Assembly (NCBI RefSeq): GCF_037975245.1 | Contig: NC_092575.1 | Coordinates: forward strand, 15,294,310 to 15,358,309 | DNA: 64,000 nt | Direction of reading: 5' to 3' | Source of the DNA: Apostichopus japonicus | Lineage: Eukaryota; Echinodermata; Holothuroidea; Aspidochirotida; Stichopodidae | Shown here: positions 39,939-63,860 of the stretch, one piece after another | Position numbering within the stretch: the first letter of the stretch is position 1 | Layout of the letters: the number at the start of each line of letters is the position of its first letter | Translations under genes and position numbers: made by a program | Notes under the pieces: generated by a model | What the model was told of the DNA's origin: nothing | What the model saw: the letters and a program-made list of their open reading frames with translations, nothing else | Database searches by the model: none

Positions 39939-40376
39939 ATGGACAGGAGTGATTTTCAGAGAAGTTTAATCCTTGGATTTGTTCTTTGCCTTGCAAAAGG
40001 GGACGAGACTTGCGATGGTTACAGTCATAAAAAGGGTAGCGAATTTGTTTATGGACTTCTTGGACAAAACATAACCTTGTCCTGTGATGTAAAGTCTTAC
40101 TGTGAAAAAGCTACGTGGGCATTCCGTACAAGTCCTGTGAAATATTTGTATGCAGAATCGTGTCCTAACTGCGGAGAGAGTTTCTCTGTCATTGACATCA
40201 TCCACGGAGACAAAGTGAACACAAGTCTACATATTAACAACATTAATGAGAGTCTTGCTGGTATCTATGACTGTAACTGTCAGCATGGTAATCAAACAGA
40301 TAGGATGAAATGCTTTAACCTACAAATTGAAAACGCTTCGTGTCAATTAGAGTTAACTCAAAATGAGAAAGTAAAG
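39939..40376 (+). CDS. Receptor A exon 1 (signal peptide and V-type Ig-like domain)
   Basis: 146 codons, ATG in an AATCAAAATGG context, ending NEKVK at donor GTAGGT. Signal peptide and the whole domain share one exon. Intron 1 is phase 0, unlike the phase-1 borders usual for shuffled Ig domains. Confidence 0.88.
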
Positions 40377-43099
40377 GTAGGTAAAACTTTGGAATATTTA
40401 TTTGATTTTTATCTAGAGTGACTTTCAATGCTCCCATGACCAATTTCTGTCTATTTGATCTAACGTGTTTTATTATTCCTCAATAAGTACCTACACCGTG
40501 CGAATTATTTCATATGATGTCACGATCCATATATTCATAAACACAGTCCAATGTGAAAAGTGTAGGTAGTGTTTTGAGGTTAAATGATTATGGAATCATT
40601 GTTTGCCTTCGCAGGTATTTCAAAACAGTTCTGGAAGTCAACATGATGTGGCAGTACGTACAGTAAATGTTAACACCGATGACAATATCACAGCCAGATG
40701 CGTAAGCAATGTTGCAAAGCTGAAAAATAATTGCACAAATAGTAAGTATTATTACAGCAATCATACACGTAAATCCCATTGAGTATATATGTGATTCACG
40801 GAATACAATCCAGAAGAAGGATGAAAGTTAAACATCTTAAATTATTTTTAACTCACAAATATTTAAAGTACAAAGATATGATGGAGCACTCTATAAAAGT
40901 TTTGCATTTTTATTACCTATCTATAACATCGGATACGGACGTATGCAACTAATCAAATTTGGGTAAAGTTTAACTCATAACAAGTAAAATATGGACAGAT
41001 TAACAAATAAAATTGCTAAAGGTTGATAAGTTGGTCAAACACGTTTGTATGTTAATTGTTTTGGGGCAAAATGTTGCTCAAATTGTTTGGATACATTTTT
41101 ACCCAGGGTTGGTACAGAACGATTGCTCAAATGTTTAAGAGTGAAGAAAAGAGCCCCAAGTGACTTGGTTACTTTATGTAGTGTTAAAGTTAAAGTGTTA
41201 GTCTTTTATATTAGTGATGGGATTGTAAACCTAGAAAAGAGCGCTTTGAGATATGATTACAGAGTCAGAAAATATTTCCCTCTCTTTATGATATGTTATA
41301 TAATTATATGTTATAGGTGTTATATGTTATGTATGGATTGCAGTGTAAATGGTGTACGTCTCGTTTCACGACTATCTCCAGAGAACTTTTTTTTACTAAA
41401 TCGTGGTATGTACTTTGTTTTTTAATGAATTTGGCCGTTACATATACTGAAATATAATGGAATGAAACCAATTATCTGATGGAAGTTGCATAAATCTCTT
41501 TACGGTATATTGACAGGAAACGTCCAAAAACAACTTAATTCGTTCAGGTTACGTTTCACCAACCTTTTAGGTATTTGCAAAAGTACCCTAAGTATGATCA
41601 GTGGTTAGATTTGCTTTCAAGTTCTCATCGGAAGTTACTCCTATATCAATAAGATAACAAGAACCAGTGATGGTCTGGGATAATTTATTTGACTTCTATT
41701 GAACAATTGACAGGGTAGATTGTGCGTGGTGACACTATACATTGCTAATTGAAACAATGGATTCATTAAGACTTCGTCTGATAGATATATGAAGACATGA
41801 AGACACTGTCTAATATATCGGAATGAATATAGGGTACTTCTTGTAATTACATTTGTTTTTAACGAAGCTCTAGAGAGGACATGGTAGAAATAAAATGATT
41901 ACGTATGTACGTAAGAATATCACGTAGGTATGAATTAATTACTACGTACATACGTAATAAACAATATGTACGTACTAATTATAACGAATGTAGGCCTACG
42001 TACATACGTACGTGCTTTTATTACGTGATATAGCCAATGTTGACACTTGTCTGACGTAAGCGAACCTACGTGATACGCTGTGTGATACATGTTCATTTCC
42101 CATGTCCTCTCTAAAGCTTCCTAGTTTTTCATAGCTGGTGTGTGACGCTTAAGAAAAGTTCCTGCTAAGCTCAACACTTCATTATTCACGAATTTTTACT
42201 TTTCAGGATCAGGGTTGTTAAAAATAAAGAAATCACAAGATAGATGCCGGATAAGTTGCAGAATCAAAAGGGTATGCCAGACGAGAATCATCTTGAGTGT
42301 AATTTCCTCAACAACAAACAGTCCATCAACTTCCACGACGAAGGAGGAAGTTACACGAAGTACTAAACTCACTATCACTAAGAGCAGTACTGTCACTTTT
42401 GCGACATCGCCCTATACTACAGAAAGAAACAGTTCCTTGATTTCCACGAGAAAGAAGGACTTTACACAAAGTACTAAACCCACTATCACTAAGAACGACT
42501 CCGTAACTTTTGTGACTTCGCAACATACTACAGAAAGAAACAGTTCATTGACTTCCACGAGGAAGGAGGACTTTACACAAAGTACTAAACCCACTATTAC
42601 TAAGAACGGCACTGTAACTTTTGCGACTTCGCAATACACTACAGAAAGAAACAGTTTATTGACTTACATGATGTCAAAGGAAGAAACTTCTATCATGTCT
42701 ACATTTCCTGTAAGAACAACTTCTACGCGGGACCAGACAAAAGTGAATACTCCAGACGATGGAATTACCGTAATCGTCTCCACAGCATATACTGGAGAAA
42801 AGATCACACTGCCTGCTACTATGATGTTTGTGGTCATACTCGCAGCTTTCATTGTCATTCTTGTTTTCATTATACTTGTTTTATTGATGAAAATTTTGAA
42901 GGGCAAGCGAAAGCGTTCCGCAGAGAAGGAAAAATGGATAAATCCTATTTATGAAGGATTTGAAGAAGGAAGGGAAAGAGATGGGTCTACTGAGCACGAA
43001 AGATCTAATATAGCTAGTCAACCGGATCAAGAAACTTTGGATGATGGAATATATCATTTGGTAGTTACTAGCAATAGCAAACCTATAAATGAATCTTAG
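39939..43099 (+). CDS. Receptor A: Ig-like domains, Thr-rich repeat stalk, TM, NPIY tail (485 aa)
   Basis: Exons 39939-40376, 40615-40741 and 42207-43099 (phases 0 and 1) give an unbroken 485-aa frame. Signal peptide 1-21. V-type Ig-like domain about 35-130: GQNITLSC (Cys49), Trp60 in ATWAF, and LAGIYDC (Tyr110, Cys112). Extra Cys at 25, 55, 75, 78, 114, 125 and 135. Second Cys-rich Ig-like domain about 147-222, split by intron 2. Thr/Ser-rich stalk with three 37-residue repeats (about 240-350). TM about 394-416 with KRKR stop-transfer. Tail with NPIY (Tyr437) and GIYHLVV (Tyr471). Several N-glycosylation sites (44, 94, 103, 118, 132). NPxY motifs bind PTB or endocytic adaptors in known receptors. 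No named family recognised; a cell-surface recognition role is inferred from architecture only. Confidence 0.88.
40615..40741 (+). CDS. Receptor A exon 2 (first half of second Ig-like domain)
   Basis: 127 nt between TTTGCCTTCGCAG and GTAAGT. Encodes VFQNSSGSQHDVAVRTVN then VNTDDNITARC and NNCTN. Highly conserved in B and C. Confidence 0.87.
41873..42111. mobile_element. TA-flanked MITE in receptor A intron 2
   Basis: Inverted ends GAGAGGACATGG / CCATGTCCTCTC flanked by TA (41871-41872, 42112-42113), as in Tc1/mariner-type insertions. The interior is full of TACGTA/ACGTACGT palindromes that would fold into a hairpin. An insertion with the same ends is at the matching site in receptor C (56288-56615). 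Confidence 0.75.
42207..43099 (+). CDS. Receptor A exon 3 (rest of domain 2, stalk, TM, tail)
   Basis: Acceptor TTTTACTTTTCAG, then SGLLKIKKSQDRCRISCRIK. Three 111-nt repeats start near 42371, 42482 and 42593. Stop TAG 43097-43099. One exon encodes the end of domain 2, stalk, membrane and cytoplasmic parts. Confidence 0.88.
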
Positions 43100-44340
43100 A
43101 ACTCCATTACAGTTGTCGTTATCGCAAAATCGATTAATTAATGCAAACATTTATCAAGTTGATAATGAAGACAACGAAACTGCTAAGAACTCAATCCTTT
43201 CTTAACATTTCATTTCACTTATGTTGTAAGTTCATTTGTTATACAAACGCTTTGAAATGATACGAAAAACATTTGCTTTGATTCCAACTTTATTTGTATA
43301 CATAACTGTGTAAATACATGCTCTCGATGCTCACAATGAAAACTTAAGATCAATGTGCTTACCGGGGCAAAATAAAGTGAAAACGTAAAGAAAATCATAT
43401 CTAAAACATTGAAAGGTGAGAAAGAAGATATACATATTAACGCAAAACCTTTATAATTCTTATTCAGATAATAATAAATTTCTCTCACTAGACAATCATA
43501 AGAGAAAACTATGACTAGGTGTTTGAGGCGGGAGGGGGCAGGGGTAGGCGATGTGGCTGCAGCCCCCCATAATGATTTTCGGGCAATATGCTGCGATTGC
43601 ACCGGGCACTGCTCAAAATAAAATAACCCTACAATGCTTGATGAGAGTCAGTTTTCCGTAAAATTGTTTATAAGACTAACCTTTCTCAGCTGACCCAACT
43701 AATCTGAAGTTGATGTTGATTTTTTACATTTTCCAAATCTTTACAACCGGGCAATCGAATTGGTCTCTTAGCCAATTACATTAACTGTTGTAGATTTCGT
43801 TGATAATGTTATGACATAGAATTATGTTAGAGCAGGGAGAAAGGCAAGCTGAATGGGAGGGGCATTTAACATATAGAGATGCATGTTCTTAAAGTCGAAC
43901 TGAATCTATTTCAGCGAAAGTTATTAAAGAAAATGTACATATGTTGCAAAATGATTAGAAATATAAAATATTATATGCTGCTTGTGTAGCTGACGAGTGC
44001 ACGCTTGATAATTATGTGCCGCCGCGGTGTATATTCGAATGCCGTACGGACTACACTGTAGGATTGTAATGATAAAGGTAAGGTATACTTTCACTTCATT
44101 TTCATTTGTAGATCTTTCATAATATATTTACCACTGTACTTTCTTTTTTCAGTGATGATTCATACGTTCTCATGCACTCTTTTTACAATGGTGGTATCAG
44201 TTCTTGTAGGCAGAGGAGCCCATGGAAACAAATATCGGTAGATAATGGAGCTACTAAAATAGCGGTGTGTAAGAAAACGTCGATAAAACGTGCGAACAGC
44301 CCGCGTGCAAAGACGTGCCTATTCTGTTTGTGTACATTAA
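43100..44340. repeat. 3' flanking block of receptor A, repeated in the array
   Basis: Most of this block is shared with 51046-52440 (after B), and its later part with 62000-62830. Shared pieces include GGACTACACTG.AGGATTG and TCATACGTTCTCATGCACTC. No supportable gene within it. Confidence 0.75.
43371..43376 (+). promoter_or_regulatory. Candidate polyadenylation signal of receptor A
   Basis: AATAAA 272 nt after the stop. The aligned signal is present after receptor B (51305-51310). Confidence 0.45.
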
Positions 44341-44344
44341 CAGG

Positions 44345-45480
44345 AACCACCCATAAACAACTGTATCCGTCCAGGTTACGTTTCACTAACCCTTTAGGTA
44401 TTTACAAAACAATGCCCTTTAAGCACCGGAGGATCATCAGAGGTTGGATTTGCTGTTAGAGATTTCCTCGGATGTTACTCCTAGATCAATAAGATAACAA
44501 GAACCTTTGATGATCTAGGATAATTTGATTTGACTTCTATTGAACAATTGAGAGAGGTAGATTGTGCTTGGTTTATATCAACACTGTCCATTGCTAATTG
44601 GTACAATGAATACAATTGATACAATGAAGAGTTTGGTCTGATAGAGATGTAAACATTCATGACGACATTAATAGTTTTAACATTGAATATATCGGAATAA
44701 GTATAGAATACGTCTTGTAATTAAATTTATTTTCCGAAGTTGAGTGGGGACGCTTAAAATGTCAGTTCTTTCTAAATTCAACACTTCATTATTCACGAAT
44801 ATTTCCTTTTCAAGATCAGGATTGTTAAAGGTAAAGAAATCACAACATGGAAGCTTGATTATTTGCAGAATCAAAACGTTATAGAACAACAAACAACAAC
44901 AAACAGTTCATCAATTTCCACGACGCAGGAGGAAGTCACACGAAGCACTGAACTCAATATCACTAAGAACTGTAACTTTTGCGACTTCTCAATATACTAC
45001 TGAAAGATACAGTTCATTGACTATCACGATGTCAAAGGAAAAATCCTTCCTCATCTCTACATCTTCTGTAAAAAGAACTTCTCCGCGGGACCAGACAAAG
45101 TTACTCCTCTAGACGATTGAATTAGCACAACAAAACCGCCATATACTACAGAAAATATAATAACAAGAATATAATATGACCGGTATTTTAGTCGGCGTTA
45201 TGTTACTCATAACGATTGTTGTTATACTAATCTTAGTTATTATTTCCTGATTGGGCTTGTTTCTCGGAAATATTCGAAGAAAGATGAATATGAATATGCA
45301 AGGGATATTCCTCTCTTCACAGCCGCAACTGGCGAAACTAACTATTCAAAAACTATATATCCATCGACGATGGATAATAGTGATATTGAATATGCAAAAC
45401 ATATTTATACATCGACATTAAATATGTGAGACATATTCATAATTGAGTTCCTTTTTATGACGAAATCAATGAATAAATTA
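44345..45480 (+). pseudogene. Receptor pseudogene E: intron 2 remnant plus chimeric exon 3
   Basis: 44345-44560 matches the middle of receptor A intron 2. From 44815 it matches exon 3 but reads SGLLKVKKSQHGSLIICRIK and then hits TAG. Domain-2 Cys codons are lost and further indels and stops follow. The stalk part resembles A and D (SKE.., RTSPRDQTK). From about 45175 it changes to the C-type membrane segment (MTGILVGVMLLITIVV) with a TGA, then the C-type tail repeats. Exons 1 and 2 are absent. Its 3' flank (to about 45800) also matches C. Confidence 0.85.
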
Positions 45481-46359
45481 AGGAAAGGAAAGAAAATACT
45501 TGTTTTCAAATATATCTCGTTGTGTGTAAGAAGTAAGAAGTACCCTCATAAAAGGTACTTTCGTTAACTTTGTTATAATAGTCTATACTTCACAATCGAG
45601 AAGACAATTATTGCACCTTTTTTTACTAGTTACCCGATAAGATATTGCGACTACTGCAACTTTATATCTGCGTTTCAATTGAATAGGATGAGACTGAAAT
45701 AACCATAGTCATTAGATTTCCGGGTTTTGTATATCGTCAAGTGTTTTCTCTCTCTGTGGTGTGCATATTTGAAGCATTAGTGTTACATTAGAAGAAACAA
45801 AATGGTTTGTGATATCATGGTTGTTTCGGAAGACGTGCCAATTAGATTTAATGGTCGCAGCCACCTAATTTTAGGGATTGATCTATTCTCTCAACAAAAG
45901 GTAACTTGTGTTTTAAGGGTCAAAGTGACATTTTGCAGCATGTTTTGTTATGGTTTTTATTGAAGATGGTATAATTCTAGTAGCTATGCCAAATAGGTTT
46001 AATCGTTCATTTACAATTTGTTTCGTTACTAATCTTATGTAATTTAGTTTCTTTACAGTAGTTCCATCGGTCAGCTAGGGAGAAACCCACTGCCCTCTTA
46101 ATTTGCCTCACAAGTAACATATTTGAATACATGCATAGGTATAGTTGTTTTTTCTATTTATTTTACATATTTCATCGTAAATGATAAAGGAAGAGCAATC
46201 TACAAGTAAGGATTTTACTCGTACCTAAAAATTACTTGAAAGTTTGATAACTTACACAATTTCCCACAAAGGCCTCTAAAGCGATGTTAGAAGAAGTGAG
46301 AAGATTATTTTCGTAATGCACCTGGACATTTGTAGAAGATCTTATATATTCTTTATGGA
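45481..46359. other. Spacer between pseudogene E and the B unit
   Basis: The first part (to about 45800) matches the C 3' flank. The rest is AT-rich with no gene signal. Confidence 0.5.
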
Positions 46360-46599
46360 GTCTATAACAATTCCCTGGTTCATTTTAGCATAGTTTCGAC
46401 GAAAACATTTGATCTTGATAAAGAATGCATCCTATATTTTACAGCCATCCATATTATTATACATCATATATAATAACCTCAAATGAAACAGTATCACGAG
46501 GCGTTGTGTCGATCAAGTCGCAGATTCCCTAAATATTTCACAATATGTATAGGCCTAAATATAAATAAGCCTAAATATTAATAAGCCCACATGTATATT

Positions 46600-46601
46600 G
46601 G

Positions 46602-46641
<40 letters not shown>

Positions 46642-46644
46642 CAT

Positions 46645-46720
<76 letters not shown>
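46600..46720. repeat. (TA)n microsatellite
   Basis: About 120 bp of nearly pure TA adjoining the Penelope-like remnant. Confidence 0.95.
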
Positions 46721-46722
<2 letters not shown>

Positions 46723-46739
46723 AATAACGGAAAAACTGT

Positions 46740-47405
46740 TAAACAACTATGCTGCATTTAGAGAAAGACTGGATCTCGAGCGAGATACAATAATTGAATT
46801 AGGGAAGTGATTGGAAGTAAAACAGCCAATGTTTGGTTTTTGCAGAGCTTTCGAGCAAAACTAGCTCTTCTTCAGTGCATGATCACCGAAAGTGACAAGT
46901 AGTAGCAGGAATTGAAACTATTTTATAGAGAAGATGTCGGCATGGTTGTAAAGGCAAAGCGACTTACTGATTTCTGCTGAATTGAGCAGAAGTTTTAGAA
47001 ATTCGGATTATTTTAATCCGATTCCGTCGTAATTGTAAAGGGATTGTTTAGTTTATCTGGAACGGCAAATCGTTTCTGATGTTTAAACCGAATGGTGCCG
47101 TGGTCTTTAGGTTAAGTTCCCAGAAATTTTCTTTCGCTTTCCTAGATTTATCTGTCCAAGAATCGTTGTGGTCAATGGCAATAACACGCAAATTCTCAAT
47201 TGAATGATTTTGGAGATTGAAGTGATTTGCAACAGGTTGGTAGATCTTTTTTGTTTTCATCGCCGATCTATGTTGTGTCATTCTCATTCTAAGAGTGTTT
47301 TTAGACTCTCTAATGTATTGTAAGTTACAAATATTGCAGTAGATGAGGTAAATGACATTTTTGGATAGGCATTTTGTGCCGAATTTGGAACGTGCGTTTG
47401 GTTTA
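46740..47405 (-). mobile_element. Penelope-like element remnant (GIY-YIG end)
   Basis: Minus frame reads [20 protein letters not shown], then [54 protein letters not shown]. This is the pattern of the C-terminal GIY-YIG endonuclease of Penelope-like retroelements, with YIG altered to YIR. Downstream (46850-46890) is a GAAGAAGAGCTAGTTTTGC / GAAAGCTCTGC terminal-repeat signature. 5' truncated and inactive. Confidence 0.78.
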
Positions 47406-47410
47406 TATAT

Positions 47411-47457
<47 letters not shown>

Positions 47458-47472
47458 ATATATATATGTATG

Positions 47473-47531
<59 letters not shown>

Positions 47532-47588
47532 GAATTGAATTCAAAGCCAATTTATGTATGTATATGTATGTATGTATATATATATATG

Positions 47589-47652
<64 letters not shown>
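47405..47652. repeat. (TA)n / (TATG)n microsatellite complex
   Basis: Two long TA tracts around a duplicated AAGAATTGAATTCAAAGCCA segment (about 47529 and 47653). Confidence 0.9.
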
Positions 47653-47654
<2 letters not shown>

Positions 47655-47699
47655 AATTGAATTCAAAGCCAATTTATACGCTTTAACATACCAGTAGAA

Positions 47700-47912
<213 letters not shown>

Positions 47913-48987
47913 CTTTAAATGCAGAAGTTAGGTTAGTTGTCTGATAGATTCACATACCACAGTAGATGATATGTAACTTACAATATGACTATATATATAT
48001 ACATGTATGAAATCTACTATAGCAGTGACGATGTTGATTGTCATCGGGTGATTGTCCAAAATCTTCTACAGGCTGGCAACATATATTTACACTAGCCAAA
48101 ATCAGCCGAACTTACTTCACCAAGTTCTTGAATAATTGAATTTTATAAGAAATTATACTCCTTGATACTAAACTTCTATTACATTAGACTTCAAGACTGT
48201 TTTGTTAAATTTCGAATGTGGTTTGTGTTGTTATGTAAAATGTTTACTAACAAAATGCTTTACTGTTGATGTATATATGGATACACCCCTAACGAAATGC
48301 TTGCCCTTAACGAAACAAATATGCTCCTAGTATTTCTTCTCAGCTATAAGGATGATAAACTCTTAACTTCTTTTTGAAGTATACTTCCCCCGCCAGGATA
48401 CTATAGCTGTCTTCATTATGTATCGGGCTATTCATTTATAGCGCTATTCATTGTTCTACTGTCTATGGGGTTTCCCCTAAGTTTGTAAGCGAGAACAAAG
48501 CAAAGCAGTGCGACAAATACGCCTACATATCAAAATGCACTTAGTTATCTGCAAGTCTGACTGTATTGGATTAATACATAACTTGATACACAATAGACTG
48601 AACATTACACAATATATCAAGGCTACAAAATGAAACCTAAATATGTAATATACTTTCACTTACAAAGGCTACAAAGGTTACTTATCATAACTATCTAGGT
48701 TTGTTACAATAGGGATAAGTGGTGCCTCGATATAATACTTTCAGTATCAGGAATGACTCACAGTGTCAGATATCGTATAACCTGTTATAACTGACGTTTT
48801 ACCTCTCTATCCTAACAGAGTGCTACTTAATGTTGTTCCTTACATTTGTGTTCGGTTTAGGAATCTCATGTTTCGCATATATGCCAAATGTTTTGGTGCA
48901 AATATTTTATTGATTGCCATTTATAAGTCATATATGTTTCCCGTAATGCAGTAAATATCAGCGCATATAAGTACACGAAGAATCAAA

Positions 48988-49425
48988 ATGGTCAGGAGTG
49001 GTTTTCAGACAAGTTTTATCCTTGGATTTGTTCTTTGCCTTGCAAACGGGGACGAGTCTTGCGATGGTTACAGTCATAAGAAAGATAGCGAATTTGTTAA
49101 TCGATTACTTGGACAAGACATCACCTTGTCCTGTGATTTAAAGTCTAACTGTGGAAGAGCTACGTGGGCATTCCGTACAAGTCCTGTGAAATATCTGTAT
49201 GCAGGATCGTGTCCTAACTGTGGAGAGAGTTTCTCTGTCAGTGACATCATCAGCGGAGATATAATGAACACCAGTCTACATATTAACAACATTAATGAGA
49301 GTTTTGCTGGTATCTATGACTGCAACTGTCAGTATGGGAATCAAACAGATAGGGTGAAATGCTTTAACATCCAAATTAAAAACGCTTCGTGTCAATTAGA
49401 GTTAACTCAAAATGATAAAGCAAAG
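48988..49425 (+). CDS. Receptor B exon 1
   Basis: 146 codons ending NDKAK at donor GTAGGT. Signal peptide plus V-type domain. Confidence 0.87.
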
Positions 49426-51045
49426 GTAGGTAAAACTTGGGAATAATGATAATATATTTTTTTTATTTAGAGTGACTTTAAACGCTTACATGAGAAATTT
49501 CTGTCTATTTGATCTAATATATTTTATGATTCCATAATTATTACCTATACCGTGGAAATTTCTACATATGTTGTCACGATCTCTATATTCATAAACACAG
49601 TCCACTCTCAAGATTTTAGGTTTGTTTTTTTAGAGGTGAAATGATTATGGAATCTTTGTTTGCCTTCTCAGGTATTTCATAACAGTTCTGGAAGTCAACA
49701 TGATGAGGCAGTACGTACAGTAAATGTTAACACCGATGACAATATCACAGTCAGATGTATAAACGATGCTGCAAAGTTGAATACTAATTGCAAAAACAGT
49801 AAGTATTATTACAACCAAAATACACGTTAAACCCATTGAAAATATGTGTGATTCATTTAATACAATTCAGAAGAAGAATGAAAATGAACTTCTTAAATTC
49901 TTATAATCCTGTAAATAAATAAATAAATTAATAAGTACACAGATGCGATGCAGCAGTCTACAAAAGTTGGGCCTATAGTTGTACCAACCTAACATTGGAT
50001 ACGGACGTATTCATGTAAGCAATGTGGGTAAAGTTTAATCCAGAACAAGTAAAATGAGGACTGTTTAACTAATTAAATTGCTAAAAGGTGACATATTGGT
50101 CACATTTGGCTGTATGTTATTTGGTTTTGGGCAAAATGTTACTCAAATTGGTTGTTATGTTTTATAATCAAGAAAAGAGTCAAGCGACTTGTTTACTTTA
50201 TGTAGTTATTAAAGTTGGTTCAAGTTGTTAAAGTCTAGGATAATTTATTTGATTTTAATAAACAAGTGGCAGGGTAGATTTTGCTTTGTTTACTTTAACA
50301 CTCACTATTGGTAATTGGTACAATTGATAAAATGAAGAACCTAGTCTGATATGATGTAATAACGACATTCATGACGACATTTCAGACGTTAACTGTCGGA
50401 ATATATCGGAATGAATATAGAATACGTCTTGTAATTAATTGGGGGTGGCACTTAAAGTATCAGTTCTTTCTAAAATCAACAGTTAACTTTTTCCCGAATA
50501 TTTACTTTTCAGAATCAGGATTATTAAAAGTAAAGAAATCAGAATATAGATGCTGGATTAGTTGCAGAATCAACAATTTATGCAAAACGAGAATCATTTT
50601 GAGTGTAATTTCCTCAACAACAAACAGTCCATCAACTTCCATGACGACGGAGGAGGAAGTTACACGAAGAAACAGTTCATTGACTTCAACGTTGTCTCCA
50701 GACGATGGAATTACCGCAATCGTATCCACAACATATTCTGGAAAAAAGATCACAATGCCTGCTACTATGATGTTTGTGGTCATACTCGCAGCTTTCGTTG
50801 TCATTCTTATTTTCATTGTACTTGTTTTGTCGCTGAAAATTTTGAAGGACAAGCGAAAGCGTTCCGCAGAGAAAGAAGAATGGATAAATCCTATTTATGA
50901 AGGATTTGAAGAAGGAAAGGAAAGAGATGGATCTACTGAGCACGAGATATCTATCATAGCTAGTCAACCGGATCAAGAAACTTTGGATGAAGGAGTGTAT
51001 CATTACGTAGTTACTAGCAATAACAATCCTATACATGAATCTTAG
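48988..51045 (+). CDS. Receptor B: Ig-like domains, short stalk, TM, NPIY tail (365 aa)
   Basis: Exons 48988-49425, 49672-49798 and 50513-51045 splice in frame with the same phases as A. Signal peptide 1-21, V-type domain (GQDITLSC, ATWAF, FAGIYDC), second Cys-rich domain (NITVRC ... RCWISCRI). The stalk is much shorter than in A: the 37-residue repeats are missing and it goes from EEEVTRRNSSLTST straight to PDDGITAIVSTTYSGKK. TM about 274-296, DKRKR, NPIY (Tyr about 317), GVYHYVV (Tyr about 351). The membrane and tail are nearly identical to A and D. Exon 1 differs from A at about 26 of 146 residues. Confidence 0.88.
49672..49798 (+). CDS. Receptor B exon 2
   Basis: 127 nt after TTTGCCTTCTCAG. 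VFHNSSGSQHDEAVRTVN..., ends NCKN plus one base at GTAAGT. Confidence 0.86.
50513..51045 (+). CDS. Receptor B exon 3
   Basis: 533 nt after TATTTACTTTTCAG. SGLLKVKKSEYRCWISCRIN, short stalk, TM, tail, stop. Confidence 0.87.
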
Positions 51046-54000
51046 AACTCCTTAACAGTTGTCGTTATCGTAAAGGAGATTAATTAAGGCAAACGTTTAT
51101 CAAGTTAATAACAAGGACAACGAAACTGCTAAGAACTCAATCTTTTCTTAATTTGTCATTGGGTAGCTGGACATAAGTTGTAAGTTCATTTGTTATACAA
51201 ACGTTTTGAAATTGATTCGAAAAATATTTGCTTTGATTACAACTTTATTTGTATCCATAACTGTGTAAATATATGCTCTCGATGTATATAATGAAAATGT
51301 ACAAAATAAAGAAAAATGCAAAGAATATCATATCTAAAATTGAGAAAAGTGAGAAAGAAGAGAGACATATGAACGCATGTCTATACTTAATCTTTTATCA
51401 TTCTGATTGAGATAACGATCAGTTTCGTTTACTAGACAATCGTAAGAAACACACATAACTAGATGTAGGATGTGGGAAGGTGGGGGGGGGGGGGCGATGG
51501 GGCTGAAGCCCCCATATGATACCCGGGCAATATGCTGGATTGTTCCGGGAAAGTACCCCCCTCAAATAAATTGCAATGTTCTTGCTTGATGAGAGTCAGT
51601 TGTTCCGTAAACTCGTTGATAAAACTACCGTTCTCAGTTTAACCAACTAATCTGACGTTGATGTTGTGGATTTCTGGCACAATTCGCACTCCATGCTTAT
51701 TTTCTCTGTCCAAGACGATGTTATGATATCACTGTTGGCATTCCTTATATCGAATTTCAAGATGAGGGGTATCTCACCAGTACACCATTCCATACCAGGT
51801 TGGTTTTATTTTCCAAAATTATATAACCGGCTAATCGAACTGGGCTCCTGGTCCCTTACTATAACTGCTGTAGATTTCGTTTATAATGTTATGACATAAA
51901 ATTATGTTAAGAGCAGAGGGAAGTGCAAGCTGAAATGTGACGGGGATTGAGGATATAGGAATGTATGTTCTTAATGTCGAATTAAATAAATATCAGTGAA
52001 AGTTATAAAGAAAGTGTATACATGTGTTGCAAAATGATTGGAAAGAAACATTAAATGCTGTATTTTTTAGTTCATGAGTGCACGCTTGATAAGTATGTGC
52101 CGCGGTGTATATGCAAAAATCATGCGGACTACACTGAAGGATTGCAATAATAAAGTACCAAAATATTTTCACTTCATGTTTATGGGTAGATCTTTATTAT
52201 TAAATTTACCATTGTAATTTCTTTGTCTGTGATGATTCATACGTGCACTCTATTTATAATTGTGCTATCAGTACTTGTAGGCAGAGGAGCCGAGGGAAAC
52301 AAATATCGGTAGAAGGGAAAAAAAATATCGGTAGGTAATGTAGTTACTAAAATACGAAATAGCGGTGTGTAAGAAAACATCGATAATGTGTCAAAAAGTC
52401 CGCGAGCAAATACGTGGTTATTCTGATTGTGTGTTTCTTGAGAAGAGAAAAATAAGGTTTGTAGTTTAATTTAATTACAAATAGGAAAAATCAGAAGAGG
52501 TGTCCGTGTTCGGTTGTCGGGACCCTCCCTGGATGCGACACTGAAAAGGTATGACCCTAAACATTGTAACTATAACTCGAGTTATATAAACTTGTAGTAT
52601 TGTAGTTAACTAGTAGAACCTACACCAGGGATAATTATGTACCGCGGTGTAGATAGAGAGGTCCCTTGCATTGAGCAGTAGAATTGTAATGATAAATTTA
52701 AGACACTTTCACTTTCACTTTAAGCTTATGTTAAGTGTATTCATAATGTATTCCAATCTGCACTTTCGCTTCTGGTGATGAGTCATACGGTTTCATGCAC
52801 TGCAACAGTAGTTGCAGATTTTCTGTAAGAGAGGCCAATGAGACACGTATCGGTATATACCGAAGCTACAATACCAAAATACCGGCGTTTAGAAAAACAT
52901 CGGTAAAAGTAAGGAATACGGGCGCACGAAGCGAGTTTATATTTTTTCTTCATAACTGATGTCTGTTTTTCTGAGAAAAAGTATCTTAGTAGCAATATTA
53001 TTTATATTATGTGGGAAAATAAATCAGATCAGGGGCCCGAGGGTCCGGTTTACATCCCTAAAGACCCCGCCCCCTCTGAGAAGTTCTGACTCATTATATA
53101 TGGTAACGATTTATAATTAGTAGCATATTAAAGATAGAATTAAGATCTCTTTACTTCAGGTTTCTGTTGCGTGTATTCATTATGTATGCAACAGTGCACT
53201 TTCTATTTCAATGATGACTTGTTCGGTCTCATGCATCCTATAATAGTTATAACGCTTTACACGAAATGTCATTAATGGTAATTCTAGTTACATTTCATTG
53301 TTTACAAAATTCTAACCTCTTCGTGCTGAGAGCGAAACTGCTTGAAAATGTATTAAGAAAAAAAAAAGCATAACGTATCTCGCCGGTTACAAATCATCCA
53401 CCTCGTAAATACTTGACAAATATGTTTGCTGTCCCAATGTCACGCACGATGTTTAATACTCGTCTAATAAAGAGAGAAAGAACAGGGGAACTTGTACCGC
53501 CTCAGTCTTATGAAAACCTAAAAAATGCCGCTTTTAATAATTTGATATGCTTCATTTCAGTTATGAAATATACCCATTTCCATATTGATAATGAAAAGGT
53601 GCTTCTTTGATAGTAAGAACAGAAACGAACTTTATAAGAGAAATTAAGAAAATGTAGCACGACCATGCCCTTTAATTAAAAAAATCTTGTCAAAAATATA
53701 TAAAAAGTGCATTTTAGTTAAACAATTTCAAGTACTGGAATTCGTGACACAGAACGTACAGAGGGCCCTACTTGTGAGGACTGTTTCGAGGTGATATTTT
53801 CGATCTACTTCCTTTAGTCTGACATGTCCCACTCCCCGACGAGTGTTGTGCTCCTCCTGGTCATACATATTGAATAATAATCCTTCTCCGCCATCTCTGC
53901 ACAAATAAGTTGTGAAGATTAAGGCGATTAAAAGTCCAAAACAGTCTTATTAAGACATTGACGTATCTATTTGATTGAGTAAGGAACTATAACTTTTCAC

Positions 54001-55219: not shown

Positions 55220-55327
55220 TGTTCCAAATTTTTTGGTGTAACTATTTCATTGATTGCCATTAATAAGTCATATTTGTGTCCCGTTATGCAGTAAACATCA
55301 ACACATTATAGTACAAGAAGAATCAAA

Positions 55328-55765
55328 ATGGATAGGAGTGTTTTTCAGACAAGTTTTATCCTTGGATTTGTTCTATACCTTGCAATAGGGCAAGATACTT
55401 GCGATGGTTACAGTCATAAGAATGATAGCAACTTTGTTTATGGAGTACTTGGACAAAACATAACCTTGTCCTGTGAGTTACAGGCTTACTGTATTAGAGG
55501 TCTGTGGGCATTCCGTAAAAGTCCTGTGAAATATCTGACAGCAGGATCGTGTTCTAACTGTGTAGAGAGTTTCTCTGTAACTGACATCATCAACGGAGAC
55601 ATAATGTACTCCAGTCTACATATAATTAACATTAATGAGCGTCTTGCTGGTATCTATGACTGTAGCTGTCTGCATGATAATGGAGCAGATAAGGTGAAAT
55701 GCTTTAACCTACAAATTGAACACGCTTCGTGTCAATTAGAGTTAACTCAAAGTGAGAAAGTAAAG
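55328..55765 (+). CDS. Receptor C exon 1
   Basis: 146 codons ending SEKVK at donor GTAGGT. Upstream identity to A and B is confined to about the last 110 bp. Confidence 0.86.
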
Positions 55766-57303
55766 GTAGGTAAAACTTCGGCATATTTATTTGATTTTTA
55801 TCTAGAATGACTTTCAATGCTTTCATGACCAATTTGTGTCTATATGATCTAAAATATTTTATGATTCCATAATTAGTACTTACATTGTGCAAATTTCTTC
55901 ATATGTTGTCACGATCCCTATATCAATAAACACAGTCCACTCTCAAGATTTTAGGTATTTTTTGAGGTGAAATATGATTATTTGATCATTGTTTGCCTTC
56001 GCAGGTATTCCATAACAGTTATGGAAGTCAACATGGTGAGGCAGTACGTACAGTAAATGTTAACACCGATGACAATATCACAGCCAGATGCGTAAACAAC
56101 GTTGCAAAGCTGAATACAAATTGCCAAAACAGTAAGTATTATTACAACAACCACACACGTAAATCCCATACAATGGATAAATTAAGACTTTCGTCTGATA
56201 GATATGAAGACATGAAGACACTTTCGAATATATCGGAATGAATGTAGAATACTTCTTGTAATTACATTTGTTTTCTGCGGAGCTCTAGAGAGGACATGGT
56301 AAAAAAAAATATATTACGTACTTACGTGATAGTACTACATACGTACGTAAGAATATCATGTACGTAAGTGATATTTATTACGCACGTGATATATATGACG
56401 TACGCACGTGATAATTAATACGTACGTTCGTAATAGGTACGTATTAATTACTACGTAATACGTAATGATCAATATGTACGTACTAATTATAACGAATGTA
56501 GGCCTACCTACATACGTGCTTTTACTACTTGATATAGTCTATGTTAACACCTGTCTAACGTAAGCGAGCCTAGGTGGTATACTGTGTGATACATCTTTAT
56601 TCCCCATGTCCTCTCTAAAGCTTCTTAGTTTTCCATAGTTGATGTGAGACGCTAAGGAAAATTTCTTTCTAAAATCAACGATTCATTATTCAAGAATATT
56701 TACATTTCAGGATCAGGGTTGTTAAAAATAAAGGAATCAAAAGAAAGATGCCGGATTAGTTGCATAATCAACAACTTATGCGAGACGAGAATCATCTTGA
56801 GTGTAATTTCCTCAACAACAAACAATCCATCAACTTCCACGGCGATGGAGCAGGTTACACGAAGAACTAAACTCACAATTACTAACTCAAGCTCTGTCAC
56901 TTTTGCGACATCGCCATACACTACAGATAGAAACAGTTTATCGACCTCCTTGATGAGGAATAAATCTGGAAAAAAGATCACCGCTAACATGACAGGTATC
57001 TTAGTCGGCATTATAGTAATCATAACGCTTGTTCTTGTACTAATCTTAATTATTATTTCCTTGTTTTGGCTTGTTTCACGGAAATATTCGAAGAAAGTTG
57101 AACATGAATATTCAAGAGATATCCCTCTCTCCACAGCCGCAACTGACGAAACTAAATATTCAAAAACTATATATCCATCGACTATGGATAATAGTGATAT
57201 TGAATATGCAAGACATATTTATCCATCGACATTGGATAATAATGATATTGAATATGAGAGACATTTTCATAATTTAGTAACTCTTTATGACGAAATCAAA
57301 TAA
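55328..57303 (+). CDS. Receptor C: Ig-like domains, different TM and Tyr-repeat tail (385 aa)
   Basis: Exons 55328-55765, 56005-56131 and 56711-57303 splice in frame. Signal peptide and V-type domain as in A/B but more diverged (GQNITLSC, GLWAF, LAGIYDC). Second domain ITARC ... RCRISCIIN. Stalk with about one degenerate 37-residue repeat, then a switch to NKSGKKITANMTG and a different TM (about 283-310, GILVGIIVIITLVLVLILII). The tail has SRKYSKKVEHEYSRDI, then two units of IYPST.DN.DIEY and a terminal TLYDEIK (Tyr381). No canonical ITAM or ITIM, no NPxY. YDEI fits an SH2-ligand pattern. The tail is shared only with pseudogene E. Confidence 0.87.
56005..56131 (+). CDS. Receptor C exon 2
   Basis: 127 nt, VFHNSYGSQHGEAVRTVN..., between CCTTCGCAG and GTAAGT. 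Confidence 0.86.
56288..56615. mobile_element. TA-flanked MITE in receptor C intron 2
   Basis: Same GAGAGGACATGG inverted ends and TA flanks as 41873-42111, at the equivalent intron position, with a longer ACGTACGTA-rich palindromic interior. Absent from receptor B intron 2. Confidence 0.75.
56711..57303 (+). CDS. Receptor C exon 3
   Basis: 593 nt after TTTACATTTCAG. SGLLKIKESKERCRISC..., C-type TM and tail, stop TAA. Confidence 0.86.
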
Positions 57304-57643
57304 TAAGCAGTGCCTACCACAGTCATCATGATTTAAGCAAAGGAAGAAAAGACTTGTTCTTAAATATATGTCATTGCGAAGTACCTTCATGAAAGTACTT
57401 TTGTTAAAGTTTGTTACGTTCGTCTATATACTTCAAAATCGAGAGACAATTCTTGCCCCTTTTCTATTAATTACCGTACCCGATGAGATCTTATATGTTT
57501 GTGTGCGACTACTGTAACTTTACATATTTGTTTCAATTGAATCAGATGAGCCCGAATCACCACAGTCATTAAATTGCCGGGTTGTGTCTATTGTGGAGTG
57601 TTCTCTCTCTCTATGATTTGCATATTTTATGCATTGATATTCC

Positions 57644-57649
57644 AATAAA
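57644..57649 (+). promoter_or_regulatory. Candidate polyadenylation signal of receptor C
   Basis: AATAAA 340 nt after the stop codon, in sequence shared with the 3' flank of pseudogene E. Confidence 0.4.
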
Positions 57650-58399
57650 AGAAAGAAAATGTAAAGAATGGATAGAACTTGGAATTATGAATCATTTTCG
57701 GAATTATTTGATTGTACCATGGCATAGCAACGGAAAGTAAGCCAAAGTTGGAAGTGTGCTTGCAGTTGTCCCAAGATGTTTTCAGAAATATGGATCGTAA
57801 CGATGCTATAAATTAAAACGTTTGGCCAAAAAAATCACTATTTATTAACCTTATTTGTGTTAGCGTACTTAAATCTACAAAATGGTCATATTAATGTGTG
57901 TTTTAAATATCAAGAACGTAAGAACTATCTCCATAGTATTATTTCTATAACTTTCTTAATGTAAGTATTCAATGTTTATTTAAACAAAGAATGACGTTGT
58001 AACTTTTCCAAATTCATCCACTTAAATTTTGGACTGATTCCGTTTCTTTTTAAGTGAACTGAGTCATGATGAAAGTAGACATATTTATTCAACAATGAGT
58101 TAACTTTACCAGTTCAGTAGGAGGCCATAACTGGTATCACCGTGCTATGCTATAAAAGTTTGTATGTCGGGCGTAATTTTGAAAGGGATATTCCCACGTA
58201 CCTGACGTGACATATTGCTAATTTTCATTCAGGACTTTAGATGTAATTAAATGTTAGTAGGATGCTAGGATGCGAGTGTACGTGACATGGCGAAGTATTG
58301 GTAGCAATATTCTCATCGTTGTGACAGTGGAAGTGCATTGCATTTGCATTGAGAAAAAGCTTAATCGTTTTTCATGTTGAGATTTATGGAGGGTGTCAA

Positions 58400-58590
58400 A
58401 ATAGTCATTAGCACAACATTGCGTGTAGAAGTAATCATCGACCTAGAGTATAGCCTACGTATGGGTCAGACTGCAGCATTTCACAGCTATTAAAAAAAAA
58501 AAATTATTTGATAAGGAGAGGTCTCTCGACAGCACCCCTGCGAGGGTTCCCGCTGCAAAACACATATGTAGGTGTTGTGCTGAATAACAC
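58400..58590. repeat. Paralog of the 35.5-36.0 kb flanks without the MITE (empty site)
   Basis: TTAGCACAACATTGCGTGTAG, then AAGTAATCAT.GACCTAG, TATAGCCTA.GTATG and AGCACCCCTG align with 35500-35536 joined to 35907-36010. Confidence 0.8.
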
Positions 58591-59734
58591 ATTAAGACAT
58601 GCTTTGTAGACATGTTTATCTTCACCTGATCAGAAAAAAAGGACACACGCATGTACACTTCTTTGACAGTAGGCTTGCTAACCAACGTCCATAGTCTATA
58701 TGCCTCCTACCCACAAATAAGGGTTACGTAACAGTTTGAAAGAGTGGAGAAGAACAGGAAAAGTAACACATCAAAACCATATATTACCTATAAAATGTCC
58801 ATGCTATTTTCGTTTTGGTTTCATAGCACACATAGCCCCAAGCGTTTCAATATGCACACAAATGTTTCAATCCGTTGGAGACTCTGCGTTCTTTGCAGGA
58901 ATAAGTCTATCCGTACAGGGTTCGTCAATGCATGTATTCGTCCCTTTTCATCTACAATATATTCCTAATCCCAATGATGTTTTAAAGCGTTTCGACCCGA
59001 AGTGCGCGATAACTTCAAAGTCAGCAGTAAAAGCAAGCGTTTCGTTGAGTCTTATACAGTTATGGAAGGGGTGTATTTTACATGAAGTTATAATTTTGAC
59101 GATGCAGACCTTATAAGATGTTACCTTAGATGTATTGTTATGTAGGGCAGTGGCGGAATCTGCTTGTGGCAGATGCTACATATAGTTACCGTGTGAGTTT
59201 CACATTCCTAAATCACAGATTTGAAATGAAGATATAAAGTTAAATTGTAAAATGTTGTGAACATATCTGGCAAAAGGTGTCTGTTTGTAACATTATACTA
59301 TGACGATTTGTTGACCAATGTGAGAATGGTTTCATTTATGTTGTATTGTAAATGTTGTATATTGAACAGAATGACTTGAAGCATTTGTTCAAGTCTATGC
59401 CAAATATGTTGTTCTCTTCTACAGTTCTTAGAAATATGATTTCATCTCAGCCATACATGCTCAAATTCTTTGTTCTTACATTAAGTTAATATTTATATAA
59501 GTTGTTCACTTGCTCTTGTACAATACAGTTCAATAAAATACCCGCTTACTCTAATTATTGAGTTCTTTCATATTTTGTAGCTTTACCCACGTTTATATAT
59601 ACTTTATGGTCGAAACACCTGTTTTTTCATTGACGACGAGGATTTTCTTAAAACTTTTGGAATTTTATTCTTAACTGGTTCCAACATTTGTTATAATGGC
59701 ATTGATTGTGAAAATTGAATAATTTGATTTAACT

Positions 59735-60065
59735 AATGAGGACTTTGATAGCTATTAAGAGAGACACAGTTCTCTTTGGCAAATGGTGTCAAAGACGATA
59801 AGAAGGTTGCAGTATTTTTTAGTCTTATCGGAACTAAGACATATTGCTTATTAAAAACTTTATTATTGGCCTATTATCCGTCTGATACGTCTTACGATGG
59901 ACTAGTCAAAAAATTAAAAGACCACTTAACATCGAAACCCTTGGTTATAGCCGAGCCGAGAAAAAGCTGTTGTTGCAGGATAAACTTACGTTTGACGAAG
60001 CAATAGAAATTGTTCTCGTCTGTGAAATGGCAGACAGGAACGTTAATGACAAAGTCAAAAAGTGA
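59735..60065 (+). pseudogene. Ty3/gypsy-type retrotransposon gag remnant
   Basis: Frame reads ANGVKDDKKVAVFFSLIGTK, then KTLLLAYYPSDTSYDGLVKK, LKDHLTSKPLVIAE, and after a deletion and frame change LLLQDKLTFDEAIEIVL. This is the order found in gag proteins of Ty3/gypsy elements. A stop and indels show it is dead; pol was not found. Confidence 0.7.
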
Positions 60066-60689
60066 CGCAAAATGCAAAGCAAACCCACACTGGTAAAAAA
60101 ATATCTGTAAATTTACAGCAGTATCTGTCAATTAGTTTCCAGAGACTTGTTGTACATCTACAATTATGCTTTGTTTACCTTTACACAAGGTGTCGTTCAC
60201 CTACAATTTCTCTAAAATGACAGTACCATTTAATAATTGTACAGTAGGTTCTGTAAAGTCACAGTTTTTTTTGTATAGAAACAATTACCTTCTGTTATTT
60301 GATGGAAAGTGGGTGTATATTTACGAAGCCTTTGTGTACAGAAACATTCTCTTTTTGTATGTTGATGCAAGGTATCTGTATATTTATGGTTAGTGGGAAA
60401 CAGGAACCACTCATATATTAACAAAGGGTATCTCAACAATTACATCCTGCTTCCGTGGCATTACAGCTCTTGTTGTAGAAGAAGGTAGATTATTAATATT
60501 TGAACAAATAACATTCAGACAAATAACAAAGCACTGCTTTTGTTTCAACTTACAACACGTTATTTTTTTTATGAGCTTGTAATACAGCTGGAACAGAAAG
60601 AAAGATACGTGAGAAACCCAAATAAGGAGGAATTAGGATGAATTGAGATCACTAAAGTATAACAGCAAAACGGATTACAGTAATAATTA

Positions 60690-61110
60690 TAATAATATAA
60701 AAAGCGCTTTCCATGAAATCTCGATGCGCTGTACAGCATAAAATGTTAAAGATTTAAATGATCATAAAAATGCACAATAGCATGAAGAGAGGTAAGATAA
60801 TAAAAAACATAAAAGAATAAATCACTCTAAGCATTTAAAAAAAAATAAGTCTTCAAGTTCTTCCTAAAAATATTAAGATTGTTCAAATTGCGGAGATCTG
60901 AAGGTAGGCTCTTCCAAACAACCGGAGCAGCGACAGAACACCGTTTATCTCCGTAGCACTTGGTCGTCGAGTTATGTGGGTGACGTAGAAGAAGTTCAGA
61001 TGATGAGCGGAGAGACCGGCCGGGAACGTATTCTTTGATGAGATCCGATATGTAAGCAGGAGCCCACATGAAGAGATTTGAAGGTCAGCATTGCTATTTT
61101 GTAATAAAAC
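60690..61110 (-). mobile_element. 3' end of a LINE retrotransposon
   Basis: Minus frame reads APAYISDLIKEYVPGRSLRS, then CYGDKRCSVAAPVVWKSLPS and NNLNIFRKNLKTYFF. This is the conserved reverse-transcriptase-ORF tail of CR1/L2-like LINEs. A short 3' UTR with GCGCTTTTTATATTATT follows. 5' truncated. Confidence 0.8.
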
Positions 61111-61999
61111 AATGTATGGTTCACAATTGACTCATATATAATTAAGTAGACAGTAAAGTGTTGCATCTTTGATCAGTTTCATCATCTTACTGATGCCACG
61201 TTAGTTCTGTTAGACGTAAGAAAGTTGAAAATATTTTTCATAACTTTCTCCATGTAGATACAGAATACTATTTTATTCACTGCATTGATATAAACATAAT
61301 CCTGAACTGGAAGTAGCAAAAAAGTAATACCCTATTAATGGATTAATGAACTATTCATTGTCTCCATGCATGGTTCCAATGATTTTTACTTCTAATCTTT
61401 CTGAGTGAAACATGCAGAAGATTAAAAAGACTAAAAAATGTTATACAGAACAAACTAGAGGAATTAAGCAATACTTTACAACGGTGTTTAATGATTCAGT
61501 GGGCTCAAATATCCGTAATAATTAAAATGATGATACTTTTGTTCCTCTAAAATACCCAAAGTAACCTAATTTTGACCGTGATGACAAAATGGGACCATCT
61601 ATTCACCAGGGGTTCCAATACATACGAGGTATGTATTTACACGGACTTTTCACTCTGCTGACCTCAAATGACTTTTGGCCTTATGAAAAACAAATTCCTG
61701 CACGTAAATCTTTTACCAAAATAATTCTAAGCCAATTTGCCAAACTCTCTCATAATGATGTTAATAGTAGCCTATATATGTGCACATCAGTTTGACATGT
61801 GCAAATGATATAACCATATCAAATTTGAAGGGGAAAAAAAGATTTGGGGATTTGAAGTTTTTACCCTAATTAATCAGTGATATGAGAACCAAAATCATTA
61901 GGGTTCAACTTATACACCATGGGTCATGCACCCATAGTGTATATATGGTAACGATCACTCATTCCCGTTTCGAGTTATTGTCCAGAACATTTTCTTGTT

Positions 62000-63268
62000 T
62001 GATTAAGGTTAGTTAAAAATGTTGATAAGACTAACGTTCTCAGTTATACCCAACTAATATGACGTTGATGTTGTGGAGTTCGGACACAATTCGCACTCCA
62101 TGCTTACCTTTTCTGTCCAAGACGATGTTATGAGATGTATCACTGTTGGCATGCCTTATATCGAATTCGAATTTCAAAGATGAGGGGAGTCTCACCAGTA
62201 TGCCCTTCCATACTGGTTACATTTTCCAAATGGTCTACACTCTACAGTCTCCCAGTCGAATTGGGTTCCTAGGCACATACTATAACTGTTGTAGATTTCG
62301 TTTATAATGTTATTACATATAATTATGTTTAGAGCAGGGGAAGCGCGAGCAGAAATGGGAGGGGGATTTAGCATGAAGAAATGTATGTTTTTAAAGTCGA
62401 ATTGAATCAATATCAGCAAAAGTAATTAAGAAAGTGTACATGTGTTGCAAAATGATTGGAAAGAAACATATATAGGCTTATGCTGCAGTTGTAGCTCACG
62501 AGTACACGCTTGATAATTATGTGCCTCCGTGTATATACAAAGACCATACGGACTACACTGAAGGATTACAATGATAAAGTACTAAATACTTTCACTTCAT
62601 GTTTATGGGTAGATCTTTCATAATATATTTACCACTGTACTTTCTTTTTCAGTAAGGATCCATACGTTCTCATGCACTCTATTTACAATGGTGGTATCAG
62701 TAACGGTTCTTGTAGACAGAGGAACCCAGGGAAACAAAAATCGGTAGATAATGGAACTACTAAAGCAGCGGGCTGTAAGCAAACATCGATAAAAAGTGCG
62801 AACAGCCCGCGTGTAAAAACGTAGTTATTCTGATTGTGAGTTCCTTGATAAGAGAAAAATCAGGTGTTTAGTTAATTGTAATTGAGATGCCCGTGCTCGG
62901 GAGACGGGACCCCTCCCTGAATACACCCCTGCAAAGTTACGACTCTAAACATCTTAACGATAACTCGAGTTATATTCCGACCTATATCCTTGGTTGGATA
63001 GAGGCAGTATAATCGCGGTGTTGTTCACCAGTAGAACCTCCACCAGGGATAATTATGTGACGCACAGTAGATAGAGAGGTCCCTCGCATTAAGCACTAGC
63101 ATTGTAATGATACATTTAAGGCACTTTCACCTATGGCTAATGTTAGGTGTATAATTTATTAAAAACTGCACTGTCTTTTCTGGGTGATGAGTCATACGGT
63201 TTCATGCACTGCAACAGCAATTTCAGATTTTCTGGAAGAGAGGCCAATGAGACAAGTATCGGTATATA
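62000..63268. repeat. Receptor 3'-flank blocks preceding fragment D
   Basis: 62000-62830 matches 51590-52440 and 43660-44340. 62980-63268 matches 52600-52860. These sequences normally lie downstream of a receptor gene but here run directly into the middle of an exon 3. Confidence 0.75.
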
Positions 63269-63860
63269 CTTAAGACTTCGCAATATACTACAGAAGGAAA
63301 CCTTTCATTGACTTACACGAGGAAGGAGGATTTTACACAAAGTACTAAACCGACTATCACTAAGAACGGCACAGTAACTTTTGCGACTTCTCAATATACA
63401 ACAGAAAGAAACAGTTCATTGACTTACACGACGTCAAAGGAAGAAACAACTATCATGTCTACATCTTCTGTAAAAATGAATTCTACGCGGGACCAGACAA
63501 AAGTCACTACTCCAGACGATGGAATTACCGCAATCGTCTCCACAGCATATACTGGAAAAAAAAGTCACACTGCCTGCTACTATGATCTTTGTGGTCATAC
63601 TCGCAGCTTTCATTGTCATTCTTATTTTCATTGTACTTGTTTTGTCAAGGAAAATTTTGAAGATCAAGCGAAAGCGTTCCGCAGAGAAGGAAGAATGGAT
63701 AAATCCTATTTATGAAGGATTTGAAGAAGGAAAGGAAAGAGATGGATCTACTGAGCACGAGATGTCTATCATAGCTAGTCAACCGGATCAAGAAAGTTTG
63801 GATGATGGAGTGTATCATTACGTAGTTACTAGCAATAGCAAACCTATACATGAATCCTAG
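63269..63860 (+). pseudogene. Receptor fragment D: truncated, frameshifted exon 3 of the A/B type
   Basis: Begins abruptly at AAGACTTCGCAATATACTAC (matching 42630 of A). It lacks exons 1, 2 and the domain-2 part. It encodes almost two 37-residue stalk repeats, TTPDDGITAIVSTAYTGKK, then TM, KRKRS, NPIY and GVYHYVV tail to a stop at 63858-63860. An eight-A run (about 63556-63563) has one base too many, shifting the frame just before the TM. The tail reads on correctly in the next frame. Either a pseudogene or a homopolymer assembly error on a partial gene. Confidence 0.8.

Follow-up and report, generated by a model that had tools for sequence, protein, structure and literature searches.

How do animals without antibodies recognise many targets? 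This long-standing question is raised by a 64,000-nucleotide stretch of the sea cucumber Apostichopus japonicus genome (C15:15294310-15358309, hereafter the window), which carries three intact genes, A, B and C, for receptor-like proteins. Each combines a V-type immunoglobulin (Ig) domain, a cysteine-rich second domain (domain 2), a stalk and a transmembrane (TM) segment with one of two cytoplasmic tail types, alpha or beta, and V domains and tails in this family have recombined at least once. Based on sequence features, we read the array as a birth-and-death family of immune-type type I membrane receptors, in which the alpha tail would serve engulfment in the manner of CED-1/MEGF10 and the beta tail would be a multi-tyrosine docking tail, and we give this reading a probability of about 45%.

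Three-exon models rebuilt from splice signals gave proteins of 485 aa (A), 365 aa (B) and 385 aa (C), with leader and TM segment assigned by eye from the sequence without a predictor. The models agree with an earlier note on this DNA, which had placed here three intact genes, one pseudogene and one fragment and had the intact copies splicing in frame; indeed, the introns of A, B and C are in phase 0 and then phase 1, with donors GTAGGT and GTAAGT and CAG acceptors. Both introns interrupt domain 2, and the end of domain 2, the stalk, the TM segment and the tail are encoded by one exon. Because at the protein level the V exon of A shares 83% identity with that of B and 73% with that of C, chance gene models are excluded. 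Moreover, 2.9-3.6 stops would be expected per coding sequence under neutral substitution (7% per branch), and the probability of finding none was 0.028, 0.052 and 0.052 for the three coding sequences; all three genes thus keep their frames open beyond neutral expectation.

The architecture that the earlier note described as common to all copies holds in A, B and C for leader, V domain, domain 2, stalk and TM segment but not for the tail, which is of the alpha type in A, B and the fragment and of the beta type in C and the pseudogene. In five close sequences aligned, alpha tails contain W-x-N-P-[IV]-Y-E followed by a C-terminal [DEN]-G-[IVM]-Y-[HY]-[LY]-[VI], the second motif being YxxV/I and not YxxL. 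Beta tails are tyrosine-rich, with repeats of the KTIYPST and DIEYARHIYPST types, and end in LYD[ED]IK in 5/5 aligned. The cytoplasmic parts of the two types do not align with each other (hhalign probability 0.1%). Reading the tail type of each copy from the nearest downstream last exon (copies beyond the window are cited by position), we assigned alpha tails to A, B, 15373039, 15399001, 15406818, 15422639, 15427136 and two decayed copies, and beta tails to C, 15362384, 15380315, 15415466 and both copies on C3. NPxY is present in the alpha tails except those of the two decayed copies and in none of the five beta tails compared. In a group of inverted copies on C15, whose V exons are 33-35% identical to that of B, NPVY was found in 3/3, W at -5 in 2/3 and DGIYYYI in 3/3. 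Since these motifs are kept there while the stretch separating them is unlike its counterpart in the close copies, we argue that the alpha motifs are in use.

The two tail types do not follow the history of the V domains. In a tree of ten V exons, two of them open V exons of pseudogenes, copy 15373039, which has an alpha tail, groups with C and 15362384, which have beta tails, with 100% support, and a tree of these exons split by tail type was rejected (approximately unbiased test, p = 0.0035). These data indicate that V domains and tails have recombined. In the alignment of exon 3, the domain-2 part of 15373039 resembles C and 15362384, and the sequence from the stalk onward resembles the alpha copies; by eye, this places the recombination point within the portion of exon 3 that encodes the stalk.

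Closely similar ectodomains on distinct TM segments and tails, recombined at least once, are also what would be seen in paired receptors in the vertebrate sense, where one tail is inhibitory and the other activating. The paired FcR-like receptors of Xenopus show the same pattern: according to PMC2413239, their ectodomains are similar, and one class has an NxxR TM motif with a short tail or none, the other tails with YxxL/I/V. The array shares with such vertebrate families (FcR-like/XFL, KIR) the common ectodomain, the alternative TM/tail types and the birth-and-death mode (PMC2413239). However, in a comparison of 6 alpha with 5 beta sequences, neither class has a charged TM residue with a short tail, and no strict immunoreceptor tyrosine-based inhibition or activation motif (ITIM or ITAM) was found. 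In addition, TM segment and tail share an exon with the stalk in the array, and the introns cut domain 2 rather than falling between domains. An activating/inhibitory pair is therefore distinctly unlikely, and the array is not a classical paired-receptor set.

We next turn to the ectodomain. A, B and C have C49, W60 and Y110-x-C112, which correspond to the B-strand Cys, the C-strand Trp and the F-strand YxC in Ig order and with V-like spacing. Across 25 family sequences, C55, W60, G108, Y110, C112 and C114 are invariant and C49 is nearly so, the extra cysteines C55 and C114 marking the family. Pfam V-set matched B at E 1.9e-5 (25.3 bits), A at 4.9e-5 and C at 0.071 when searched alone; none of the three reached the curated cut-off of 26 bits, which is a detection threshold and not a structural feature, and 12/25 family members matched at E <= 0.01. 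The earlier note had proposed a profile search, and a 25-sequence profile matched 109 PDB sequences at E <= 0.1, the best 60 of the 109 all being Ig-superfamily chains by name (best, neurotrimin, E 5.5e-11); a three-row profile gave weak PDB matches that also included zinc-finger chains. Profile-profile comparison (hhalign) with a set of eight further V-set domains from this genome gave E 2.3e-6 and a probability of 89%. AlphaFold2 models from three-row alignments were poor for both exon 1 and the mature V domain (pLDDT 44 and 37), so the assignment of the V fold rests on the profiles; Foldseek and VIA-align on the poor exon-1 model returned mostly Ig chains, weakly, and were not used as support. 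On the profile evidence, the first domain is assigned as a V-type Ig domain. The J-segment motif FGxG is absent after C112 in A, B and C, where the sequence continues KCFN[LI]QI, and V domain and start of domain 2 lie in one exon, unlike the V(D)J layout.

The best PDB profile matches are adhesion proteins (neurotrimin, NCAM2 and contactin), as would be seen if the array were a lineage-specific expansion of adhesion or reproductive Ig receptors, acting in gamete or self-recognition and not in immunity, with tails coupled to cytoskeleton and endocytosis. Three of the 25 members also matched the Sp38 sperm Ig domain weakly (best E 0.0032), and the allorecognition genes of Hydractinia likewise belong to the Ig superfamily. 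Matches this distant indicate fold rather than function, though, and tandem birth-and-death arrays of short stalked V-type proteins are more typical of immune-type families. We consider a non-immune expansion of this kind rather unlikely.

The extent of the array bears on the immune-type reading as well. Using the V exon of B as query, one search of the genome (671,581,487 bases, 35 contigs) scored 47 candidates and yielded 34 rows at E <= 0.01. Some rows cover parts of the same exon (15415466/15415600/15415701 and 15471592/15471737); once these were merged, 31 V exons remained genome-wide, broken ones included, a count that may miss distant members. Local expansion, as claimed in the earlier note, is borne out by tandem duplication in an array running far beyond the window, and 31 V exons contradict a named single-copy family. 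On C15 there are 21: 13 close copies at 15334248-15450742, 4 inverted copies at 15471592-15500524 and 4 further ones at 15534326-15560881, together a stretch of ~227 kb with the window at its left edge. Two more lie on C3, and C1 has 6 near 4.3 Mb and 2 near 20.5-20.6 Mb. Haplotype misassembly as the origin of the tandem copies was ruled out by the neutral divergence among A, B and C, about 0.15-0.20 in intron 1, together with the fit of this assembly to a published HiFi/Hi-C assembly (671.6 Mb, 23 chromosomes and 34 scaffolds; PMC10344927).

Intact models were obtained for 7/13 close C15 copies (A, B, C, 15362384, 15373039, 15406818 and 15427136), and the other six are degenerate or broken. 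Exon 2 is not recognisable in 15380315; in 15399001 the exon-2 donor is gone, the acceptor reads AAG instead of CAG, and the frame of exon 3 is broken; and the V exons of 15415466 and 15422639 are broken. In both 15447976 and 15450320, cysteines of the V domain are missing, as is the P of NPxY; 15450320 also lacks the usual start, and 15447976 nevertheless yields an open 342-aa model. At C15:15422639-15423144, a V exon with internal stops is joined straight to TM segment and alpha tail, the intervening region being gone, which makes it a deletion pseudogene. The far copies are built alike: with a permissive pattern, 10/10 inspected had a phase-0 donor candidate at the end of exon 1, and the last exons read there, three on C1 and one at 15562733, show Cys motif, stalk or TM. 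For one of the two C3 copies, 19065882, no exon-2 match was found. The array beyond the window was read in parts, and further lone last exons may exist there.

Some observations concern relatives elsewhere. The six V exons at C1:4300025-4339043 are nearly identical distant relatives within 39 kb, and the three last exons read there have a third tail type, short and ending in PQY[AD]VVMMH. A Pfam V-set search of the genome, with 150/653 candidates scored, gave 140 rows at E <= 0.001, about half of them on C12 by eye; C12 carries a much larger V-set expansion than the C15 array, and the three C12 loci read look unlike this receptor family. A scan of viral contigs for relatives gave 2 pattern matches and 0 confirmed.

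With six of the 13 close C15 copies broken or degenerate, the array could consist mostly of decaying duplicates of little function, its intact frames being recent survivors. The ratio of nonsynonymous to synonymous substitution rates (dN/dS) in exon 1 is in line with this for A-C (1.09) and B-C (1.16), both near 1, A-B being at 0.59; in domain 2 the ratios for A-B, A-C and B-C are 0.61, 1.09 and 0.36. Over eight V exons taken as intact (the seven C15 genes and 19072611 on C3), omega was 2.14 (0.97-11.2) for the BC and FG loops, which were picked after A, B and C had been viewed and then tested, and 0.63 for the framework, a value that speaks against decay although its interval (0.37-1.09) extends above 1. 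Moreover, the seven intact copies keep frames and splice sites, and the tail motifs are kept across 33-35% V identity. Decay as the main explanation is highly improbable.

Beyond the observed gene anatomy and V/tail recombination, we infer cell type, ligand, adaptor and output for the immune-type reading as follows. The ~227-kb stretch would be a birth-and-death array of type I membrane receptors that opens with A, B and C. Its proteins may be displayed by phagocytic coelomocytes, the V domain serving as a putative ligand-binding face and the stalk as a spacer. Judging from its motifs, the alpha tail could work like that of CED-1/Draper/MEGF10: its PsiNPxY would bind a phosphotyrosine-binding (PTB) adaptor of the CED-6/GULP type, giving endocytic uptake, and the C-terminal YxxV/I would provide a second phosphotyrosine site. 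A hydrophobic residue at -5 of NPxY has a role in such sites. The beta tail, with its several tyrosines, may act as a docking platform whose terminal YDEI is Src-SH2-like; Src-family SH2 domains prefer pYEEI-like sites. One ectodomain on two tails would then couple the same ligand class either to uptake or to another signal. A stronger version, which we regard as somewhat doubtful, is that recombination shuttles variable V ectodomains between the engulfment-type tail (PsiNPxY + YxxPhi) and the docking tail with its many tyrosines. This would be a 'paired receptor' logic that relies on phagocytic instead of ITIM/ITAM signalling, such that individuals would differ in how specificity is wired to output.

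Variable loops in the V domain would favour recognition. The loop/framework dN ratio was 3.49 for A, B and C, reached by 0/5000 random block pairs, and 2.43 for all eight genes (2/5000); variable sites in all eight made up 19/21 loop positions vs 43/96 framework positions (p 1.6e-4). A first loop test, with strands taken from the poor structure model, gave p 0.84. The excess in the eight V exons stems from A, B and C, and V-loop hypervariability is suggestive only.

Several points weigh against the immune-type reading. In the five other genes the loop/framework dN ratio was 1.44, reached by 557/5000 random block pairs, and variable sites were 11/21 vs 35/96 (p 0.22); as the loop signal is strong only in A, B and C, we count it on this side. 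Domain 2 is small, Cys-rich and split over three exons. The earlier note spoke of two-domain Ig-like receptors; the first domain stands as V-type by profiles, whereas the second is not recognisable as Ig. Pfam gave it no meaningful family (Ephrin at 0.057 in one of the three proteins and DUF4998 at 0.016 in another, neither reaching the cut-off), a PDB search at E <= 1 found nothing, and it did not match the in-genome V-set profile. The second alpha motif, with G at -2 and V/I at +3, is neither a strict YxxL nor a strict ITIM. In the beta tail, YDEI is a putative SH2 site. Finally, some nutrient receptors and adhesion receptors carry NPxY too.

Several known systems resemble the array in part. 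In CED-1, NPxY, which binds PTB adaptors, is accompanied by a single YxxL (PMC8092387); similarly, the NPxY of alpha tails, which has W at -5, is followed by another tyrosine of the YxxPhi type close to the C terminus. Unlike CED-1/Draper/MEGF10, the array has a V-type Ig ectodomain and not EMI/EGF (no EMI or EGF Pfam match in A, B or C), is multigenic and has YxxV/I as the second motif; it is not a CED-1 relative. For sea urchins, putative transmembrane receptors with IgV-IgC1 ectodomains have been described (Hibino 2006 and Rast 2006, as told in PMC3308324), which by description resemble the array in being echinoderm transmembrane proteins with a V-type domain in a two-domain ectodomain. In contrast, domain 2 of A, B and C gave no Pfam C1-set match; the sea urchin receptors may be distant kin of the array. 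VCBPs and FREPs are likewise diversified invertebrate immune-type proteins with Ig-like domains, but the array has a TM segment, and A, B and C gave no chitin-binding (VCBP) or fibrinogen-related (FREP) Pfam match. The Alr genes of Hydractinia are also tandem invertebrate Ig-superfamily receptors with a V-like first domain, and probably differ from the array in gene structure (leader and V domain share one exon in the array) and in tails. The earlier note could not match the receptors to a named family, and none was found in Pfam, PDB sequences or the open-access literature among the matches listed; by title and abstract, no description of the array appeared among the best literature matches listed, and one may exist elsewhere.

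The features of the locus are collected in Table 1. A block of ~100 bp before the ATG is common to A, B and C, and its ATG-nearest part also occurs in other close copies (10 aligned in all). A 111-bp in-frame tandem repeat of 3.2 copies (window 42316-42665) sits in the stalk of A, the stalks of other copies being shorter; stalk length thus varies by repeat number and may be polymorphic. The sequence preceding the fragment resembles the 3' flank of B, and a 3'-flank module is repeated after A, after B and before the fragment (window 43635-44332, 51583-52860 and 61990-63269); this repeated module is a trace of unequal exchange.

Table 1 Gene models and other parts of the receptor locus (window positions)
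Feature	Position	Strand	Content
Gene A exon 1	39939-40376	+	signal-like leader, V-type Ig domain, first strand of domain 2; 438 nt, ends in phase 0
Gene A exon 2	40615-40741	+	middle of Cys-rich domain 2; 127 nt, ends in phase 1
Gene A exon 3	42207-43099	+	end of domain 2, Thr/Ser stalk, TM, alpha tail (WINPIYEGF ... DGIYHLV)
Gene B exon 1	48988-49425	+	signal-like leader and V domain; 438 nt, phase 0
Gene B exon 2	49672-49798	+	127 nt, phase 1
Gene B exon 3	50513-51045	+	short stalk, TM, alpha tail (WINPIYEGF ... EGVYHYV)
Gene C exon 1	55328-55765	+	signal-like leader and V domain; 438 nt, phase 0
Gene C exon 2	56005-56131	+	127 nt, phase 1
Gene C exon 3	56711-57303	+	stalk, TM, beta tail (KTIYPST / DIEYARHIYPST repeats, end TLYDEIK)
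Pseudogene	about 44813-45467	+	lone last exon, beta-type tail, several stops and frame breaks
Fragment	63274-63860	+	3' part of last exon, alpha tail, 5' part missing, one frame break in A-run
Conserved block, ~100 bp, ending at ATG	39835-39938	+	candidate 5' untranslated region or core promoter upstream of gene A

Within the window, long TA microsatellites occupy 46531-47909, and beside them lies an open reading frame (ORF; 47048-47551, minus strand) without a Pfam match, which resembles the end of a Penelope-type element. Adjoining the array on the minus strand (10494-29220) are SYGQ-rich and RGG-rich ORFs, one ending in RGRPY, which by eye look like a FET-family (FUS/EWS/TAF15) RNA-binding gene; no Pfam match was found for the three pieces scanned. 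A Pfam scan of eight window ORFs outside the receptor genes gave no match at E <= 0.01, and an Rfam scan of the window gave none at gathering scores.

In a farmed species, this compact mapped locus brings together one putative recognition domain, two signalling tails and visible V/tail recombination, and it makes testable whether the tail decides between uptake and another response. If the immune-type reading is true, like ectodomains paired with different outputs can arise without ITIMs.

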